Made by a program: the position numbers and the translations under genes. This document shows, piece after piece, positions 42,409 through 50,256 of a stretch of DNA of 64,000 bases (the stretch's first letter is position 1; the number at the start of each line of letters is the position of its first letter). The notes under the pieces were generated by a model, which worked only from the letters and a program-made list of their open reading frames with translations, made no database searches and was not told the DNA's origin. The DNA comes from Mesonia profundi (GTDB lineage: Bacteria; Bacteroidota; Bacteroidia; Flavobacteriales; Flavobacteriaceae). The DNA lies in contig NZ_JAVHUL010000007.1 in NCBI RefSeq assembly GCF_031085155.1, positions 23,216 to 87,215 of the forward strand. Reading direction: 5' to 3'.

Positions 42409-42909
42409 TTATTGGGAGGGTGTTTTTTGTATTAACTGAAATAAAACCAGGAGTACCGAAAACACAAAAGAAGTGGTCATTAATATACCAGAAATCATCA
42501 CGACATAGCGCATCCAATATAGCCCGCTCCACATGAAATAAATTCCACCAAAGGTGACTAAAACCGAAACTAAAGGCTCTAACAATAAGAACTTTTTGAT
42601 TCCTATTTTTATTTTAGCCATCGCCACTAATCCACCTAGTAGAAAAAAAATCACCGACATTGATAGAATGTGTGTATGAACAATGGTGAGCATTTCTCGC
42701 TCTGGTTTTTTAAATTTCATTACCTCTGCCTCCAAATCTTCCTCGTTGCCCAAATAATTTTCTTGAATGCCTTGAGGATGATTTTCTGTAGTATCATTTA
42801 CAAAAGTCAAACCCGTAAAATAACCGACGCTTAACACTACTAGAAAAGCGCCGATTAATAATTTTACTTCTTTGGGTAGACGATAAATAAATCCGTTAAG
42901 ATTCATCAT
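42409..42909 (-). CDS. Small four-helix membrane protein with intramembrane HxH
   Basis: A 166-residue protein with four predicted membrane helices, at about residues 17-37, 74-97, 105-130 and 134-160. The soluble segment between helices 1 and 2 is about 37 residues and acidic. Helix 2 begins LTIVHTHILSMSV, placing His78 and His80 near a membrane face where they could bind haem or metal. No family name is recognised. It overlaps the FMN-binding gene by 4 bp and is the last gene of a three-gene operon, so a role as membrane partner of that flavoprotein is inferred. Confidence 0.75.
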   Translation of the reverse strand: MMNLNGFIYRLPKEVKLLIGAFLVVLSVGYFTGLTFVNDTTENHPQGIQENYLGNEEDLEAEVMKFKKPEREMLTIVHTHILSMSVIFFLLGGLVAMAKIKIGIKKFLLLEPLVSVLVTFGGIYFMWSGLYWMRYVVMISGILMTTSFVFSVLLVLFQLIQKTPSQ

Positions 42910-43442
42910 AATTGATTTTCCTGTTTTAAAATATGCACTGTTTTTAATACATTATTTACAGCTCTTGCCATAGATGAGGCAGAAATAGTCGCTCCACTAA
43001 TGGCAGCTATATTTTCTCCATACTCAATTTTAGAGTCTGGTGTCATACCTATAAACTGCTTAAGCCAACGCTGAGACCCTATTTGAAGTCCGTAATCTTC
43101 TCTGTAGATAAGAACTTTAGATTTTTTAATCTTCAAATCTTTATCAAACAACACCACATATTCAAATTTCTTCTTTTTACTTGGAGCAGTTCCTAAATAG
43201 GTATAACCTATAAGTTCTCCTTGTACAGAAATTCTTGAAAGGTTTTTAGCTGCGGTCTTCGCTGGAATTTTTTCTTCTATATTTCCTGAAGCCGTAATAG
43301 ATTCCAACTCATAATCCTTTACTTCGTAAGTGCTTTTTATCGCCTTATCAAATTTTTCTTGAAGCCTATCTTGGGTTGTCGTAACCGTAAAAGCAAAACA
43401 ACTTAATAGACCACAAAATACTAATAACCTTTTAATCATCAT
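42906..43442 (-). CDS. Exported FMN-binding domain protein (flavinylation type)
   Basis: A 178-residue exported protein. A signal peptide (IKRLLVFCGLLSCFAFTVT) precedes an FMN_bind domain like those of NqrC and RnfG. The motif AAISGATISASSM near residues 147-159 corresponds to the S-G-A-T site where ApbE attaches FMN covalently to Thr. It has no membrane helix after the signal. Such proteins carry electrons outside the cytoplasm. It overlaps both neighbours by 4 bp (ATGA), so the three genes are tightly coupled. An ApbE gene is not in this window. Confidence 0.85.
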   Translation of the reverse strand: MMIKRLLVFCGLLSCFAFTVTTTQDRLQEKFDKAIKSTYEVKDYELESITASGNIEEKIPAKTAAKNLSRISVQGELIGYTYLGTAPSKKKKFEYVVLFDKDLKIKKSKVLIYREDYGLQIGSQRWLKQFIGMTPDSKIEYGENIAAISGATISASSMARAVNNVLKTVHILKQENQL

Positions 43443-44338
43443 TTATTTTTTACGTATTCTTCTACAGTACTATCAATTTTTGCTTGTTTTGTTTCAATAT
43501 CCATTGGGAATAATTGCATAAATAAAGCTTGTCCTTTTACCTTTTCTTCTAAAGCTAAATTTTTATCGCGACCGTAAACATCACTCCACTTTGTTCTTAC
43601 TTTACTCCAAAGTCCTTTGTTACTTGCCCACCAGTCTTTTCCTGCTTTACATTGCTCATCGTCCACTTTTTTATAAATATTATATCCCTTTTCTTGCACT
43701 AAAAGCACATCTTCTTTACCATCTTCACGAATAACTTTTTCATTATCCTGCTCGTGCAACCACCCTTCTTTTGTAATTTCAACTTGATTACCACGCATCA
43801 TTACATTATAATCACTTCGTTTAGAATATTCTCTACGCGGCAAAGGAGAACTTGTAGTATTATTCCAATAATGTCTTCCATCTGCATGAATCCAAGTTGC
43901 AGAACCTGAGTAACGCGGACTATCATCTACCTGATATACATTTTGTGTCCATTGTCCTTTTACATCTTTCTTATTCATATTTACAAAAGTCCATTGGTTA
44001 TCGTGGTTAAAGTCATAACGCTTGGTATTTTCATACAACCAATCTTGTCTCCAGTGCTTAATGACCATGGTATCATTAAGAACTAAAAGGTGCTGAATAG
44101 AAATTTCGTCTTTTTCATCTTTTATCAACTCTGCCCATTCTAACGCTGTAGCGGTATAATCATAGTGCTTTTCATAATCAATTTCTGGAGAAAATGTCTC
44201 GGTATACTTAAAGGTAACCTCAAAACAGCCGCACATATCTTTTATAGCTTGTTTATCTTCTTTTAGATTTTTTTGGGCAAAACCAACGCTAGTGGCTGCC
44301 ATCAAAACACTTGTCAATAATAAATTCTTGAAATTCAT
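43439..44338 (-). CDS. DUF6607 family exported protein
   Basis: A 299-residue exported protein with signal peptide MNFKNLLLTSVLMAATSVGF ending near FAQ. The mature part is beta-rich with many Trp and Tyr (HWRQDWLYENTKRYDFNHD, WTFVNMNKKDVKGQW, WIHADGRHYWNN) and two adjacent cysteines in KDMCGCFEV. It matches the DUF6607 family pattern as I recall it; the function is unknown. The ATG at 44338 is chosen because it starts the signal peptide. A -7-like TATTTTTG (minus strand 44379-44372) precedes it. It is first in the operon, divergent from the TonB receptor. Confidence 0.8.
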   Translation of the reverse strand: MNFKNLLLTSVLMAATSVGFAQKNLKEDKQAIKDMCGCFEVTFKYTETFSPEIDYEKHYDYTATALEWAELIKDEKDEISIQHLLVLNDTMVIKHWRQDWLYENTKRYDFNHDNQWTFVNMNKKDVKGQWTQNVYQVDDSPRYSGSATWIHADGRHYWNNTTSSPLPRREYSKRSDYNVMMRGNQVEITKEGWLHEQDNEKVIREDGKEDVLLVQEKGYNIYKKVDDEQCKAGKDWWASNKGLWSKVRTKWSDVYGRDKNLALEEKVKGQALFMQLFPMDIETKQAKIDSTVEEYVKNK

Positions 44339-44453
44339 TTTTATTAGTTTTTTATAGATTGATTTCTGCGACAAAAATATAAAATTTATTTAGATTGATT
44401 TAAAATAATATATATATTTGCAGAAATATTTTAATTAAGACTTAGTCTAAATA
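44339..44453. promoter_or_regulatory. Shared divergent control region of the haem-uptake and flavoprotein operons
   Basis: 115 bp of AT-rich DNA with a -7 element in each direction: TATATTTG (plus, 44413-44420) and TATTTTTG (minus, 44379-44372). The plus-strand leader contains the palindrome ATTAAGACTTAGTCTAAAT (44434-44452). A half-site-like TTTAGATTGATTT lies at about 44390-44402. Joint control of both operons is suggested by this layout. Confidence 0.65.
44434..44452. promoter_or_regulatory. Palindromic operator candidate before the TonB receptor
   Basis: A 19-bp near-perfect palindrome centred on T44443: the core AGACT-T-AGTCT is perfect, and three of the next four flanking pairs also match. 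It lies between the -7 element and the ATG (44454), a position where a bound repressor would block transcription. The form is like that of DtxR/MntR-type metal boxes; the regulator is unknown. Confidence 0.55.
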
Positions 44454-46616
44454 ATGGAAAATAGATTTCTACTCATCATTTTACTTTTAAACTTATTTAA
44501 CATTCAAGCTCAAGAGACTGAGGTTAAAAGAGGTTCAAATGAAAAGAAAAAAGATAGCGTAAAAGTGAATGATCTAGAGGAAGTTATTCTTACAGGACAA
44601 TACAATTCCCAATCTGTAAAAAAATCGGTTTTTGAAGTACAGGTAATTACAGAAAAAGACATTCAGTTGATGGCAGGAAATAACCTTGCCGATGTTCTTA
44701 CCCAAACATTAAATATGAATATTATTCCGCAAGCTGGTGAAGGCAGATCGGGAATTCAACAGTTTGGATTTACCTCAGAATATGTAAAAATTTTAGTAGA
44801 TAATGTACCCATCGTAGGGGATGAAGGTTTTGGGAATGCTATAGATATTTCTCAAATTAACTTAGATGATATCCAACAAATAGAAATTATTGAGGGCGCT
44901 ATGGGAGTACAATACGGTTCTAATGCAGTAACCGGTGTGGTGAATATTATTACAAAAAAATCCGCGAAAGCGAAATGGCAAATCACGCCATATATTCAAG
45001 AAGAAACCATTGGTAGCGAATATGGATTGTTTGATGAAGGTAGACATATACAGTCTTTGAAAGTGGGACATAATTTTACAGATAAGCTCTACGCCAATGT
45101 ATTATTTACCAGAAATGATTTTCAAGGGTTTCTTAATCAAAATCAAGGAAAAAATTATTTTAATCCAGAGGATGAAAATGATGGTTTAAGAGGTTATGAA
45201 TGGCTTCCTAAAGAACAAAATAGTATTAAAACTTTAATTAATTATCGTTTTAAAAACTTTACCGTTTTTTACAAGTTCGAATACTTTACGGAAGAAACTA
45301 ATAAGTACAATACCAATGTATTGCTCAACCCAAATAGCGCTACACAAACTGTTAATCCTACAGCAAACGATGAAATCTTTAATTCAGACAGGTTTTATCA
45401 TCATTTAAATGCGACAGGGAAAATTAAAAATCAGGTGAACCTTAATATTTCGGCATCTTACCAAGAACAAACCAAGAATATTGAAACCTTTACTTACACC
45501 ATAAAATCTGAAGAGAAGTCTAATATTGAAAATTATGATTACAATACCCGCAAAGGCTTTTTCTCAAGAGGAACTTTCAACAACTTTTTTAATAAGGAAA
45601 ATTTTAAATTAGAATTAGGTTATGAAACTACGCTGGATGAAGGTTCTGCAAGCGGACTTTCATCTCAGAACGTCGAAAATAGAACTCAAAACAATACCCT
45701 TAATTCATATAGTTTCTTTGCTTCTTCAGAAATAAAACCTACCACCCGCTTATCCTTAAGACCTGGAGCTAGAATTATTACCTCTTCGCAGTTTTCACCT
45801 CAGTATGCAGTTTCCCTTAGCGGAAAGTATAGCTTTAAAGATGGTTATCAACTAAGAACTATTATTGGTACAGCACCAAAAACACCTACGTTTGAGCAAC
45901 TCTATTTTTATATGGTTGATAGCAATCATAATGTACAAGGAAATGAGAACCTAAATCCGGAATATGGAAAATCTATATTCTTACACTTTAAAAAAGCATT
46001 TTGGTTAAACGATTACGAATTAAAATATACTCCAAAACTATCGGCTTGGTATCTAGATGTTAAAGATAAAATAGATTTAATTATTACAAATACTTCTCCC
46101 CTAGCCTACCAATATAACAATATAGATCTATACAAAACTTGGGGATTATCCTTAAGAAATACACTTAAATACAAAAATCTTTCTGCTACCCTAGGACTTG
46201 CTTTCTCTGGAGAATCAAAAGTATTAAACAGTAGCGATGTGTATAATGATGATTTCTTATATGCATTTCAATTCAACACTAATCTATCTTACCCAGTTCC
46301 TAAATGGAATACTGTTTTCTCTACTTTTTTTAAAGTAAATGGTCCGCAATATCAATTTGTTTCTAGCATTAATGACGATGGAGAAACTGAAATTACTAGA
46401 GGAAAACTAGACGGGTACGGTTGGTTAAATACATCTATCAAAAAGACATTCCACAAAGACTTAGATATTACCATAGGCGCAAGAAATGTATTAGATATTA
46501 CAGAAGTAAACTCTAGTACAGGCCAAGGTGGTACTCACTCTGCAGCATCTTCATCCCAGTTATTAGGATATGGCAGGTCTTTCTTCGTAAAACTTTTATA
46601 CCATATAAATTTTTAA
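44454..46616 (+). CDS. TonB-dependent outer-membrane receptor (HmuR-like, haem/iron)
   Basis: A 720-residue outer-membrane receptor. After the signal peptide (FLLIILLLNLFNIQAQ) comes a TonB-box/plug region (VNDLEEVILTGQY, KDIQLMAGNNLADVLTQTL, EIIEGAMGVQYGSNAVTGVVNIITKK). A 22-strand-type barrel ending in an aromatic residue (YHINF) follows. The next gene, 2 bp downstream, encodes an HmuY-like haem-binding lipoprotein, so haem is the best guess for the substrate. An operator-like palindrome precedes the start. There is no carboxypeptidase-like N-terminal extension of the SusC type. Confidence 0.9.
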   Translation: MENRFLLIILLLNLFNIQAQETEVKRGSNEKKKDSVKVNDLEEVILTGQYNSQSVKKSVFEVQVITEKDIQLMAGNNLADVLTQTLNMNIIPQAGEGRSGIQQFGFTSEYVKILVDNVPIVGDEGFGNAIDISQINLDDIQQIEIIEGAMGVQYGSNAVTGVVNIITKKSAKAKWQITPYIQEETIGSEYGLFDEGRHIQSLKVGHNFTDKLYANVLFTRNDFQGFLNQNQGKNYFNPEDENDGLRGYEWLPKEQNSIKTLINYRFKNFTVFYKFEYFTEETNKYNTNVLLNPNSATQTVNPTANDEIFNSDRFYHHLNATGKIKNQVNLNISASYQEQTKNIETFTYTIKSEEKSNIENYDYNTRKGFFSRGTFNNFFNKENFKLELGYETTLDEGSASGLSSQNVENRTQNNTLNSYSFFASSEIKPTTRLSLRPGARIITSSQFSPQYAVSLSGKYSFKDGYQLRTIIGTAPKTPTFEQLYFYMVDSNHNVQGNENLNPEYGKSIFLHFKKAFWLNDYELKYTPKLSAWYLDVKDKIDLIITNTSPLAYQYNNIDLYKTWGLSLRNTLKYKNLSATLGLAFSGESKVLNSSDVYNDDFLYAFQFNTNLSYPVPKWNTVFSTFFKVNGPQYQFVSSINDDGETEITRGKLDGYGWLNTSIKKTFHKDLDITIGARNVLDITEVNSSTGQGGTHSAASSSQLLGYGRSFFVKLLYHINF

Positions 46617-46618
46617 TT

Positions 46619-48034
46619 ATGAAATCTAACTATTTAGTACTTTTTTCTCTCGTTATTATCTTCTTTACGGCTTGTAATAAAGATGATGATTCGACAGCCA
46701 ATGATTCTGAATTTGTCGTGGCTTTTAAAAATCCTTCTACAGCTTTCACGGAAACTGATAATGAAAAAGAAATAGACCTTGTTTTTTCTAATGAAGCTCC
46801 GCAGGACGGAATACTCATTATTACTTATACCGAAACCAACTTAACTTACGGTGAGGATTATAGCACTACTCCATCCGCGCAAAGCGGAATTATTGAAATT
46901 CCTATTGTAATGGGAACCATTCAAACTTCATTTAGTCTGAAAAGATTAAACTCAAATCCTGCTCAAAATGACACTGATAAATCTATTGAGTTCTCCATAA
47001 CAGAAGTAAATATTCCTAATGGTTTTACTCAAGGAAACACTAGCAATTTGGTAAGTTTCTCTGATACTGCTTCTCTTGGCGGAAGCATTTCTCCCAATTT
47101 AGGAGGACCTAATGAAGGAAATCAAGTGTATTTAGATTTAAGTACTCAACAAGAAACCGTAGTAAGTAGAGATAAATGGGATTTAGCTTTTTATAACGGA
47201 GATCAATTCCGCGTTAAGCTAAATAGCTCTTTATTTATGATGGCTGCTCCATTAGAAACTACGAATATTGATGCTATTACCGAAGCTGATGTTGCTAGTT
47301 TACAGTCACAAATGGCTTTCCTAGTGCAAGGATCTAATGAATTTGTAGATGCTCCTAGCGGAAATTTAAACGAAACGGTGATCGAAGAAATTTCTATCAA
47401 CCTTGAAGAGAATAAAGTTTACCTCATCAAAATGGGGAACGAGATAGGAACTGACACTCCAGAAACAGGAAGTGTTGCCGTTGCTGGAGCCGATAGAGGC
47501 TGGAAAAAAATAAGAGTTGTACAAGAAAGTGGTGCTTATAAATTGCTATATGCCAATTTAGATGCAACTACTCACCAAGAAATCACTATTGGAAAGGATA
47601 ACCATCACGATTTCACCTATTTCAGTATGGTCAATGAAAATGTGGTAGATGTAGCTCCTGCAAAAGGGAAATGGGATCTTAATTTTACCGTTTTTACGGA
47701 AGTGTTAGATCTTCCAGAAGGTGGAGAATCTGCTTATGGTTTTTCTGATTATGTAGCTACTAACGTACTTTCTAACACCAAAGCTTACCAAGTAATGACT
47801 GAAGATATTGCCTATCAAGATTTCACTACAGCAAATATCGATAATTCATTATATGAAGTTGACCAAAGAGTAATTGGAGCCAATTGGAGAGATGTTTTTA
47901 ACGGGCTATTTAACGAGCGTTTTTACATCATTCAAGATACTGACGGAAATACTTATAAATTAAAATTCACTTCGATGGTGAATGAAAACGGCGTACGCGG
48001 TTACCCAAAATTTGAATATCAAATCCTTAATTAA
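46619..48034 (+). CDS. HmuY-family haem-binding surface lipoprotein
   Basis: A 471-residue lipoprotein with lipobox FFTAC followed by NKDDD, which fits the flavobacterial surface-export signal (K followed by acidic residues). The mature part starts with a beta-sandwich-like domain (about residues 30-150). An HmuY-type domain follows, with VYLDLSTQQETVVSRDKWDL, FYNGDQFRVKLN and the late KWDLNFTVFTEVLD and YKLKFTSM. HmuY of Porphyromonas strips haem from host or environmental proteins and passes it to the TonB receptor HmuR. It follows the receptor gene by 2 bp. Confidence 0.87.
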   Translation: MKSNYLVLFSLVIIFFTACNKDDDSTANDSEFVVAFKNPSTAFTETDNEKEIDLVFSNEAPQDGILIITYTETNLTYGEDYSTTPSAQSGIIEIPIVMGTIQTSFSLKRLNSNPAQNDTDKSIEFSITEVNIPNGFTQGNTSNLVSFSDTASLGGSISPNLGGPNEGNQVYLDLSTQQETVVSRDKWDLAFYNGDQFRVKLNSSLFMMAAPLETTNIDAITEADVASLQSQMAFLVQGSNEFVDAPSGNLNETVIEEISINLEENKVYLIKMGNEIGTDTPETGSVAVAGADRGWKKIRVVQESGAYKLLYANLDATTHQEITIGKDNHHDFTYFSMVNENVVDVAPAKGKWDLNFTVFTEVLDLPEGGESAYGFSDYVATNVLSNTKAYQVMTEDIAYQDFTTANIDNSLYEVDQRVIGANWRDVFNGLFNERFYIIQDTDGNTYKLKFTSMVNENGVRGYPKFEYQILN

Positions 48035-48064
48035 ATATACAATCATAACTAAAAATTACACCTC

Positions 48065-49303
48065 ATGAATTTAAAACTATCTTTCTTAGCGTTTTTTAGC
48101 TTTTGCTTAGTCGCAACGGCGCAAACTACCGTAAATCTTAGCTTAGATCCTTCTTATGCAAACGAAGTTTATTATAAGTTTTCTACCAATCAAAGTTACG
48201 ACCATACCGCAACCGATTGGGAAATTGCTTTTTTAAGAAATAACAATATGAATTTTGCCATTAGAATTAATGACGGAATTGGTTTAGAAGTTTTTGAAGC
48301 AGCCAATACTCCTGCAGATTATGTCACGGTAGATGTTAACAATGTTGCCAACTTCACACAGCTATATAACAGTGACATAAGTTGGTTTGAAGGAGCTTTT
48401 AATACAGGTTCTGCTTCTTATGGTTTTGGAGAATACAACCCAGCAAACCACCACGTAGAAGGGACTGTTACCTTTTTATTAAAATATGCTGACGGGAGCT
48501 TCAAAAAATTATTTATCGAAGATTACTTTGGCGGATATACGTTTAAGTATGCTACTTGGGACGAGACAACTTCTACTTGGAGTGCAGATACTACCGAAAC
48601 CGTTTCTAATACCAGCAATCCTAACAACATGTTTAACTACTACAATTTCACTACCGCTACTGAAGTAGTTGCTGAACCTGCAAGTACAGACTGGGATCTA
48701 AAATTTACAAAATTCACTACAGATTATGCTTATAGCGGAGGAACTATGAAGTATGTAGTAACAGGAGCTTTACAACATCCAGATGTTGTCGTGGCAGAAA
48801 ATATAGAGCCTAACGGAAATGGAGATACTAGTAATCTTAATTATTCAGATGAGATCAATACAATTGGTTACGACTGGAAAAGCTTTAGCGGAACTTCTTA
48901 CGATCTAGATCCAGAATTATTCTACTATGCAAAATACCTTGACGGAACTGTTTACAGGTTACATTTTACCAACTTTGAAGGAAGTTCAACAGGAAATATT
49001 CAGTTTAATTATGAAGATGTAACTAGCCAGTTAAACACGGTTGCTTTTGATGTAAAAAATACCTTTAGCATCTATCCTAACCCATCTAGGGATAAACAAA
49101 TTAATATTTTAACTGAAAGTAATCATGCTAACCAAGTAATTGAAATCTATAACCTTTTAGGTAAAAAGATTTATGCTACTCAGCTTCAAAATACAGGTTT
49201 CACAAATCAGTCTTTAAACCTTTCTTCATTAGCTAAGGGTACTTACTTTATAAAATACCAAACTGGAAACCACAGCACAACTCAAAAATTAATTTTAAAT
49301 TAA
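48065..49303 (+). CDS. HmuY-like protein with T9SS type A sorting domain
   Basis: A 412-residue exported protein. The signal peptide (LKLSFLAFFSFCLVATAQ) is followed by a domain with HmuY-like elements: DWEIAFLRNNNMNFAIRIN, STDWDLKFTKFTTDYAY and VYRLHFTNFEG. The last about 75 residues are a T9SS sorting domain: FSIYPNPSRDKQINI, IEIYNLLGKKIYA, LNLSSLAKGTYFIKY and TTQKLILN. It should cross the outer membrane through the T9SS and be attached to the surface or released. The gap to the lipoprotein gene is 30 bp, and a terminator follows. Confidence 0.87.
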   Translation: MNLKLSFLAFFSFCLVATAQTTVNLSLDPSYANEVYYKFSTNQSYDHTATDWEIAFLRNNNMNFAIRINDGIGLEVFEAANTPADYVTVDVNNVANFTQLYNSDISWFEGAFNTGSASYGFGEYNPANHHVEGTVTFLLKYADGSFKKLFIEDYFGGYTFKYATWDETTSTWSADTTETVSNTSNPNNMFNYYNFTTATEVVAEPASTDWDLKFTKFTTDYAYSGGTMKYVVTGALQHPDVVVAENIEPNGNGDTSNLNYSDEINTIGYDWKSFSGTSYDLDPELFYYAKYLDGTVYRLHFTNFEGSSTGNIQFNYEDVTSQLNTVAFDVKNTFSIYPNPSRDKQINILTESNHANQVIEIYNLLGKKIYATQLQNTGFTNQSLNLSSLAKGTYFIKYQTGNHSTTQKLILN

Positions 49304-49392: not shown

Positions 49393-50256
49393 TTAATGGT
49401 ATTTTGTGAAGATTTTTGTGGCTTCATTATAAGAAGATTCAAAGCTTGACATCTTTACATTAGCATCGGCTTTTGCCGCATTAAAATAACTCAGCATTTT
49501 CTCTGTCGGCATATTTCCTGTTAATTCATCTTTGGCCATAGGACAACCACCAAAACCTTGTATCGCACCGTCAAATCTTCTACAACCCGCTTTATAGGCA
49601 GCATCAATCTTCTCGTGCCACGACGTTGGAGTGGTATGCAAATGAGCCCCAAACTCTATATTGGGGTAAGCCGGAATTAGATTAGAGAACAGATACTCGA
49701 TGGTTTCTGCATCTGAAGTTCCCACCGTATCTGATAAGGATAAAATATTGACTCCCATCGCCGATAAACGCTCGGTCCATTCTCCTACAATTTCCACACT
49801 CCAAGGATCTCCATAAGGATTCCCAAACCCCATAGATAAGTAAGCAACCACTTCCTTCCCATGAGTATGCGCTAAGTTTAAAATCTCCTGTAGCGTATCT
49901 ACCGATTCTTCGATGGTTTTATGCGTATTTCGCATTTGGAAATTTTCTGAAATCGAAAAAGGATAGCCTAAATAATCAATTTCTGGATGTTGAACCGCAT
50001 CCTGAGCTCCACGAACATTAGCCACGATAGCTAAGAGTTTACTCGAGGTCTTAGACAAGTCTAATCCTGCCAAAACCTCTTTGGTATCTACCATCTGCGG
50101 AATCGCTTTGGGAGAAACAAAACTCCCAAAATCGATGGTATCAAAACCACAACGCAATAAAGATTGTATGTACTGTATTTTCTCTGTTGTAGGAATAAAA
50201 TCTTTAATTCCTTGCATCGCATCCCGCGGACACTCAATAAGCTTGATCTTGTTCAT
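49393..50256 (-). CDS. Hydroxymethylglutaryl-CoA lyase
   Basis: Cleaves HMG-CoA to acetyl-CoA and acetoacetate in leucine breakdown. The 287-residue TIM barrel has the N-terminal IECPRDAMQGIKDFIPT with the catalytic Arg and Asp, GAHLHTTPTSWHEKIDAA with the metal-binding HxH, and the lyase signature GAIQGFGGCPMAKDELTGN with the catalytic loop Cys. It stands alone. The 333 bp upstream (50257-50589) contain no gene on that strand; part of that stretch encodes the out-of-frame tail of the next protein. Confidence 0.93.
   Translation of the reverse strand: MNKIKLIECPRDAMQGIKDFIPTTEKIQYIQSLLRCGFDTIDFGSFVSPKAIPQMVDTKEVLAGLDLSKTSSKLLAIVANVRGAQDAVQHPEIDYLGYPFSISENFQMRNTHKTIEESVDTLQEILNLAHTHGKEVVAYLSMGFGNPYGDPWSVEIVGEWTERLSAMGVNILSLSDTVGTSDAETIEYLFSNLIPAYPNIEFGAHLHTTPTSWHEKIDAAYKAGCRRFDGAIQGFGGCPMAKDELTGNMPTEKMLSYFNAAKADANVKMSSFESSYNEATKIFTKYH

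Follow-up and report, generated by a model that had tools for sequence, protein, structure and literature searches.

A predicted Fur-controlled haemophore locus with an FMN-binding protein and an unclassified membrane protein in Mesonia profundi

Introduction

A haemophore that holds haem with picomolar affinity raises the question of how its ligand is released again. This question arises for a locus in a 64,000-nucleotide stretch of Mesonia profundi DNA (contig NZ_JAVHUL010000007.1, positions 23,216 to 87,215; the whole stretch is called the window here), in which two divergent operons share one control region. One operon encodes a TonB-dependent receptor and HmuY-type proteins, and the other a DUF6607 protein, a flavin mononucleotide (FMN)-binding protein and a 166-amino-acid membrane protein, called M166 below. 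RhuH, a haemophore of Riemerella anatipestifer, binds haem at a dissociation constant (Kd) of 3.4e-11 M (34 pM) with His96 as an essential residue, and its high-affinity haem binding, extraction of haem from haemoglobin and secretion in vesicles have been published, together with three homologues reported to be conserved in structure and function (PMC11967795). No explanation of haem release from RhuH was found in the available part of that text.

This paper describes the haemophore, the flavin arm and the control region of the M. profundi locus, and their distribution among related genomes. The analysis suggests that uptake includes an extracytoplasmic step in which the iron of captured haem is reduced. 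The locus probably combines a Fur-controlled haemophore module of a known kind with an unclassified flavin electron arm; in the periplasm, this arm would reduce haem iron or Fe(III). Whether it is, more specifically, a Fur-controlled haem-acquisition locus with a dedicated FMN-M166 arm that reduces haem iron or haem-freed Fe(III) in the periplasm is a matter that we consider evenly balanced.

Results

The gene at 43439..44338 (minus strand) encodes a DUF6607 protein (Pfam, 356 bits) that is a homologue of RhuH. Its AlphaFold model, with a predicted local distance difference test score (pLDDT) of 89.7, matches the fold of RhuH (PDB 8XJC) at E 5.5e-34 with 45% identity, and the two sequences match at E 1.3e-85. 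By script mapping, the essential RhuH His96 aligns to H95 of the window protein in the motif KHWRQDW, and H95 is invariant in an alignment of 44 sequences. The propionate-binding residues R143, Y144, R170, R183, and Q198 of RhuH correspond, as counted by eye, to R142, Y143, R169, R182, and Q197, the first four of which are likewise invariant in the 44 sequences. The first-pass annotation, made from the letters of the window alone, had taken DUF6607 for an unknown binding partner, an assignment that is ruled out by homology in both fold and sequence: the protein has a published haemophore as its homologue, and that haemophore has a comparable locus. In R. anatipestifer, a 122-base promoter carrying a Fur box separates rhuH from the divergent rhuR-rhuA (PMC11967795), and because that arrangement is already published, the haemophore half of the window locus is a known kind of locus. 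The name DUF6607 itself was not found in the open-licence literature searched.

All six genes described in the first-pass annotation were recovered at their positions. The haemophore gene is followed on the minus strand by the genes for the FMN-binding protein (42906..43442) and M166 (42409..42909), with 4-bp overlaps (ATGA) at both junctions, and Pfam revealed no domain that binds nicotinamide adenine dinucleotide in any of the three. Coordinates, Pfam and structural modelling thus bear out the description of this operon as three overlapping genes that include a flavinylation motif and a four-helix protein with an HxH. On the plus strand, the TonB-dependent receptor gene (44454..46616; Pfam plug and barrel), which has the position of rhuR, is followed after 2 bases by a HmuY-family gene (46619..48034) in the position of rhuA and, after a further 30 bases, by a HmuY-like gene (48065..49303). 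The claim of two HmuY-like proteins stands in full for the first, which matches PF14064 (89 bits) and has a lipoprotein-like N-terminus by eye. The second lacks a Pfam HmuY match, Pfam matching its type IX secretion tail only, and is called HmuY-like because phmmer placed both proteins in one cluster. In related loci (L162, L164, L167, L168, and others), the HmuY gene of the receptor operon is often succeeded by one for a DoxX-family membrane protein.

The divergent start codons of the two operons are separated by 115 bp (44339..44453, no strand assigned). This region was searched for the R. anatipestifer Fur box ATTTAGAATTATTCTAAAT (PMC5609570), a match being defined by at most 4 mismatches; the abstract of that publication names a different sequence, and its results and discussion as well as PMC10986502 give the ATTTAGAATTATTCTAAAT type. 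The 64 kb of the window contain just two matches, at 44388..44406 (4 mismatches) and 44434..44452 (3 mismatches), neither with an assigned strand and both inside the 115-bp gap, and at least two matches were encountered in 0.25% of 2000 shuffles of the gap. Among relatives, a site was present in 56 of 58 divergent gaps between rhuH and the receptor gene, where about 2 were expected, the scanned gaps including 30 coding bases at either end. Counted per gene, a Fur-box-like site lies upstream of 49 of 52 DUF6607 genes and of none of four ankyrin genes. The predicted shared control of the two operons exceeds chance, and the common regulation that had been supposed at the outset is supported by the paired sites around which the operons diverge. 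The haem-scavenging locus is apparently switched on by iron shortage, as judged from these Fur-box-like sites.

The FMN-binding protein (FMN_bind, 34 bits at a cut-off of 22) has a hydrophobic N-terminus by eye and a flavinylation motif SGATIS with T152 as the acceptor, and is 97% identical to a protein from Mesonia algae. Its match to rnfG is weak (28 bits, cut-off 102). Among 88 aligned FMN proteins, the flavinylation site reads [S/T]GAT in 78 and AGAT in 10. The genome of the window contains two ApbE genes, with lipoprotein-like N-termini by eye, as the earlier proposal of a flavinylated protein had called for. Moreover, an ApbE-family gene was found near FMN-M166 in nine loci, all in genomes that share the phylum only, and one of these members was checked with Pfam. 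The window protein is probably covalently flavinylated. In a tree of the 88 proteins, obtained by a quick search, the 14 FMN proteins linked to RhuH, including that of the window, form one group with 97% support in the Shimodaira-Hasegawa-like approximate likelihood ratio test, separate from those linked to a second operon type described below; one of the 14, from L134, was flagged as a long branch. This placement suggests that the RhuH-linked FMN protein is a dedicated paralogue.

M166 is predicted to have four membrane helices (pLDDT 95.8), and its HxH (H78 and H80) lies in helix 2. Both histidines are invariant in 61 M166 sequences, which contain no other His- or Cys-rich column, and the HxH was present in all 55 M166 proteins of a set of named genomes (46 by pattern and 9 by reading). 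An acidic loop at residues 42-69 and a basic C-terminus suggest that H78 and H80 are near the periplasmic face. The window protein has sub-threshold Pfam matches only; for the 61 members, the Pfam matches listed are of E 1.6e-4 or weaker, and the Pfam families of NapH, MsrQ, PepSY, DsbD, Nqr/Rnf-like proteins and DUF4405 are absent from their matches at E 0.1. A search of the PDB with an M166 profile returned 0 matches. The M166 tree neither groups the four RhuH-linked proteins into a single clade nor contradicts such a clade (p 0.53 in the approximately unbiased test).

The combination with the flavin arm recurs outside M. profundi. DUF6607 is present in 44 of 296 genomes sampled from the order and 101 of 299 sampled from the family. 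Neighbourhoods were compared in 85 DUF6607 loci, a non-random set in which 17 of L162-L199 were chosen as top DUF6607 scores, L162 was chosen for M166 adjacency, and L079, L132, and L134 entered through M166. These loci contain a TonB receptor in 79 and a HmuY-family gene in 81 cases; FMN is directly downstream of DUF6607 in 14, four of which have M166 within 1.5 kb. A further search of named genomes used a profile of 13 of the 14 RhuH-linked FMN proteins, with 80 of 104 loci kept and proportions that favour RhuH-linked loci. Here, FMN directly follows DUF6607 in 46 of 80 loci (45 by script, L214 by reading), and the order DUF6607-FMN-M166 was found in 21, directly in 14 and in the other 7 with a further gene separating FMN from M166. 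An outer-membrane barrel candidate precedes FMN-M166 in 33 of the others, and one locus ends at a contig edge. Together with a divergent TonB receptor, the direct order occurs in Mesonia, Salegentibacter, Ulvibacterium, and Eudoraea, and the order in which a small gene separates FMN from M166 occurs in Croceivirga and Flagellimonas.

A protein of 114-121 amino acids, mostly with a central CxxC, follows FMN in 21 of the 80 named loci (e.g., L223:6531-6887 and L220:6509-6874) and at times lies between FMN and M166. One copy has a sub-threshold match to DUF6686, and the protein is absent from the window.

FMN and M166 are tightly paired at the level of whole genomes. With a few weak matches included, M166 was detected in 112 of the 299 genomes sampled from the family and in 39 of 395 from the phylum. 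For the pairing census in the 299 family genomes, FMN proteins above 100 bits were counted, 14 FMN matches (at most 36.2 bits) and 6 M166 matches (E 1.2e-11 or weaker) were excluded, and genome G389, whose remaining matches are broken pieces, was kept. In this census, the FMN family and M166 occur jointly in 108 genomes and either one alone in none. The 116 FMN genes comprise 106 beside M166 and 13 beside DUF6607, three being beside both; of the 101 DUF6607 places, the census took in the 14 that reading of the lists put near an FMN or M166 place. Three M166 places stand without FMN beside them: one is a fragment at a contig edge in G526, and the others are intact genes in G452 and G504, two genomes whose sole FMN gene sits at rhuH. 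Among the DUF6607 genomes, M166 is present in 13 of 13 with FMN at rhuH versus 17 of 88 others (p 1.5e-8). The 85-locus set, itself partly chosen through M166, gives 14 of 14 with FMN versus 15 of 71 without, and L162-L199 minus the loci with adjacent M166 give 9 of 9 versus 13 of 28 (p 0.005).

The commoner setting of FMN-M166 is not rhuH. Of 80 M166 loci fetched (L076-L155), 77 had a called M166, no M166 gene being left in L135-L137 after a simple gene caller, and with L055 and the window they make 79. FMN is present in 77 of these, and a gene of about 390 amino acids, usually just before FMN, in 73. This gene is usually flanked by genes for a 3-hydroxy-3-methylglutaryl-CoA (HMG-CoA)-lyase-like protein and inosine monophosphate dehydrogenase (IMPDH), and such operons account for L076-L134 and many of L219-L276. 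Its product is predicted to be an outer-membrane barrel on the basis of reading of the sequence and of an outer membrane protein match that one member gives below threshold (22.0 bits at a cut-off of 28.7); no Pfam or NCBIfam family scored above cut-off, and a profile search of the PDB gave six weak matches (best E 0.13), which were taken as chance. The window has an HMG-CoA-lyase-like gene (49393-50256) adjoining the haem locus, which in relatives is the usual flank of the barrel-FMN-M166 site.

The barrel operon also has the iron signature. A Fur-box-like site lies at most 160 bases upstream of the barrel gene in 89 of 91 loci, a count that merges two collections partly sharing genomes, where shuffling predicts 3.2; counted as distinct upstreams, it precedes 85 of 87 barrel-FMN-M166 operons. 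Distant loci have a site in 12 of 18 cases versus 0.2 expected, and control genes are near chance, with sites in 2 of 77 distinct upstreams of HMG-CoA-lyase-like genes and 3 of 85 of IMPDH genes. Because Fur-box-like sites precede these operons, the flavin arm is predicted to serve in iron starvation even where haem genes are missing, and barrel-FMN-M166 is apparently an undescribed iron-regulated flavin system of its own.

Finally, a different flavin arm can occupy the same position at the haem locus. In 19 of the 85 DUF6607 loci the slot after DUF6607 holds a DUF2271 or PepSY gene, DUF2271-PepSY being a flavinylated arm that has been connected with iron reduction (PMC8238504). FMN and DUF2271-PepSY were together in this slot in none of the 85 (chance of no overlap 0.02), and in L055 DUF2271-PepSY follows DUF6607 while a barrel-FMN-M166 operon lies about 6 kb away. 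An ankyrin-DUF2271-PepSY arrangement with a flavodoxin/FNR fusion was observed downstream of the RhuH homologue in L181, L183, L185, L186, L188-L190, L193, L195-L197, and L199. This arm differs from FMN-M166 and is the second observed at haem loci of this kind.

Discussion

The presence of a flavin protein in the haemophore's own operon offers a directly testable answer to how a protein with the affinity of RhuH releases haem. In the proposed scheme, the TonB receptor and the two HmuY-type proteins would deliver haem to the outer membrane and across it, and the RhuH-type haemophore would hold ferric haem via one histidine. M166 would draw electrons from the membrane, probably from quinol, at a site close to the HxH, on the outer side of helix 2, and would hand them to the FMN protein. 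In the periplasm, this protein may in turn reduce the haem iron or Fe(III) that haem has released. Upon reduction, haem would leave the very tight haemophore site, or the iron would become importable. For this scheme we infer cotranscription, flavinylation, location, electron source, direction of flow, and substrate alike. More broadly, to judge by its genomic settings, FMN-M166 appears to be an iron-regulated flavin arm of general use that became joined to rhuH. We tentatively propose, giving this slightly less weight than an even chance, that FMN-M166 is an unrecognised Fur-regulated class of extracytosolic electron-transfer systems in Bacteroidota with M166 as a new type of carrier, and that its RhuH-linked form is a haemophore-coupled haem-iron reductase, in which reduction, not affinity alone, drives haem off.

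Several observations weigh against these readings. RhuH has been reported in outer-membrane vesicles (PMC11967795) and may thus be beyond the reach of a periplasmic FMN protein. M166 has no fold match to a solved structure at E <= 0.001 (best E 1.4), and a classical bis-His haem inside one M166 chain is unlikely because the protein has just two conserved histidines, both on one helix. The flavinylation site of 6 of the 14 RhuH-linked FMN proteins is AGAT, which departs from the published [S/T]GA[S/T] at its first position. A Fur-box-like site was found within 160 bp upstream of just 30 of 57 TonB receptor genes, a count that includes other receptors. The RhuH-linked FMN gene is missing next to DUF6607 in 88 of the 101 family genomes that contain DUF6607 and present there in 13, so that the flavin arm at rhuH is optional. 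At the genome level, DUF6607 and M166 are uncorrelated (30 genomes shared, 36.5 expected, p 0.13), and their co-occurrence was dropped as evidence; the conserved association anticipated by the first-pass annotation therefore holds as a gene order that recurs in other genera and fails as joint presence in genomes. Moreover, the co-occurrence and association statistics ignore phylogeny.

The main rival to haem reduction is generic Fe(III) reduction. FMN-M166 would then be a general Fur-regulated reductase of free or chelated Fe(III) that feeds ferrous import, its placement at rhuH reflecting co-regulation on an iron-responsive promoter and not haem reduction. This is possible, if doubtful: it is favoured by the commoner barrel-FMN-M166 operon with its Fur boxes, which usually lacks haem genes, and by the many FMN-M166 genomes without DUF6607 (108 and 101 genomes, respectively, of which 30 are shared). 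However, the FMN proteins at rhuH form a separate clade, and 8 of the 13 family genomes concerned carry a second, M166-linked FMN gene elsewhere; a dedicated substrate is therefore suggested.

It is improbable that the arm serves to protect or repair the haem-uptake proteins, for example by quenching oxidants that haem generates or by reducing haem-ligating methionines once they are oxidised, and has no part in uptake. Haem import brings oxidative stress, which speaks for such a role. Flavin arms are also described as serving other periplasmic redox partners (PMC8238504). Nevertheless, control by an iron box both with and without haem genes fits a supply function better, and no recurring peroxidase- or Msr-like gene was noticed in the neighbourhoods, most of whose genes lack identification. 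A chance juxtaposition, by insertion of the haem locus at the IMPDH site without functional link, is very improbable indeed, since, although the window locus sits where many relatives keep barrel-FMN-M166 beside the IMPDH gene and two congeners (L160 and L161) lack DUF6607, the FMN family, and M166 and have other genes between the HMG-CoA-lyase-like and IMPDH genes, the same order is also found in other genera at places other than the IMPDH site (e.g., L132, L134, and L162), with genes that overlap or are separated by short gaps, and the RhuH-linked FMN proteins are one clade.

The uptake of haem has been connected with FMN or redox chemistry before, through the flavodoxins HmuF and FldH and the de-chelatase HmuS. 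HmuF is cytosolic. HmuF and FldH are described as binding both FMN and haem and as handing the haem over for degradation, and HmuF belongs to the flavodoxin superfamily, unlike the FMN_bind protein of the window. HmuS-bound haem is described as being reduced upon addition of the reduced form of nicotinamide adenine dinucleotide (NADH), by a route that is unknown. HmuS presumably belongs to the CobN family, and no CobN-type chelatase was found in the genome of the window, by which HmuS-like de-chelation is ruled out there. RnfG/NqrC-type proteins share the FMN_bind domain and the SGAT site with the window protein, whose operon, in contrast, contains no other Rnf or Nqr subunit and has M166 as the partner. 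The PepSY-DUF2271 systems (PMC8238504) resemble the window in combining an extracytosolic flavinylated protein with a membrane electron carrier tied to iron uptake, but their flavoprotein and carrier belong to different Pfam families. The terms porin, haemophore and haem uptake are absent from the main texts, as available, of two surveys of flavinylation.

The closest known system is the RhuH-RhuR-RhuA locus of R. anatipestifer (PMC11967795), which shares with the window a homologous haemophore with the same haem ligand, a divergent TonB receptor with a haem-binding protein, and a short bidirectional promoter with a Fur box (122 versus 115 bp). It differs in that the haemophore operon of the window runs on into the FMN protein and M166, and in that the first HmuY-type protein is followed by another that carries a type IX tail; neither "flavin" nor "FMN" was retrieved by a term search of the available text of PMC11967795. 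The open-licence literature searched contained no description of a flavin arm in a haemophore operon, of the dedicated FMN clade, or of the M166 family and its Fur boxes; nothing was found on an FMN-binding domain and iron limitation in Flavobacteria, and, among the matches listed, nothing relevant on Fur and an iron reductase in Bacteroidetes. The first-pass suggestion that the arrangement is undescribed accordingly applies to one half of it: the haemophore half is already known from the published RhuH locus, and the flavin arm is the new part. Its proposed carrier M166 is a membrane protein family outside the described flavinylation-linked carrier classes, and among the 299 family genomes each of the 108 with M166 or the FMN protein has the pair.

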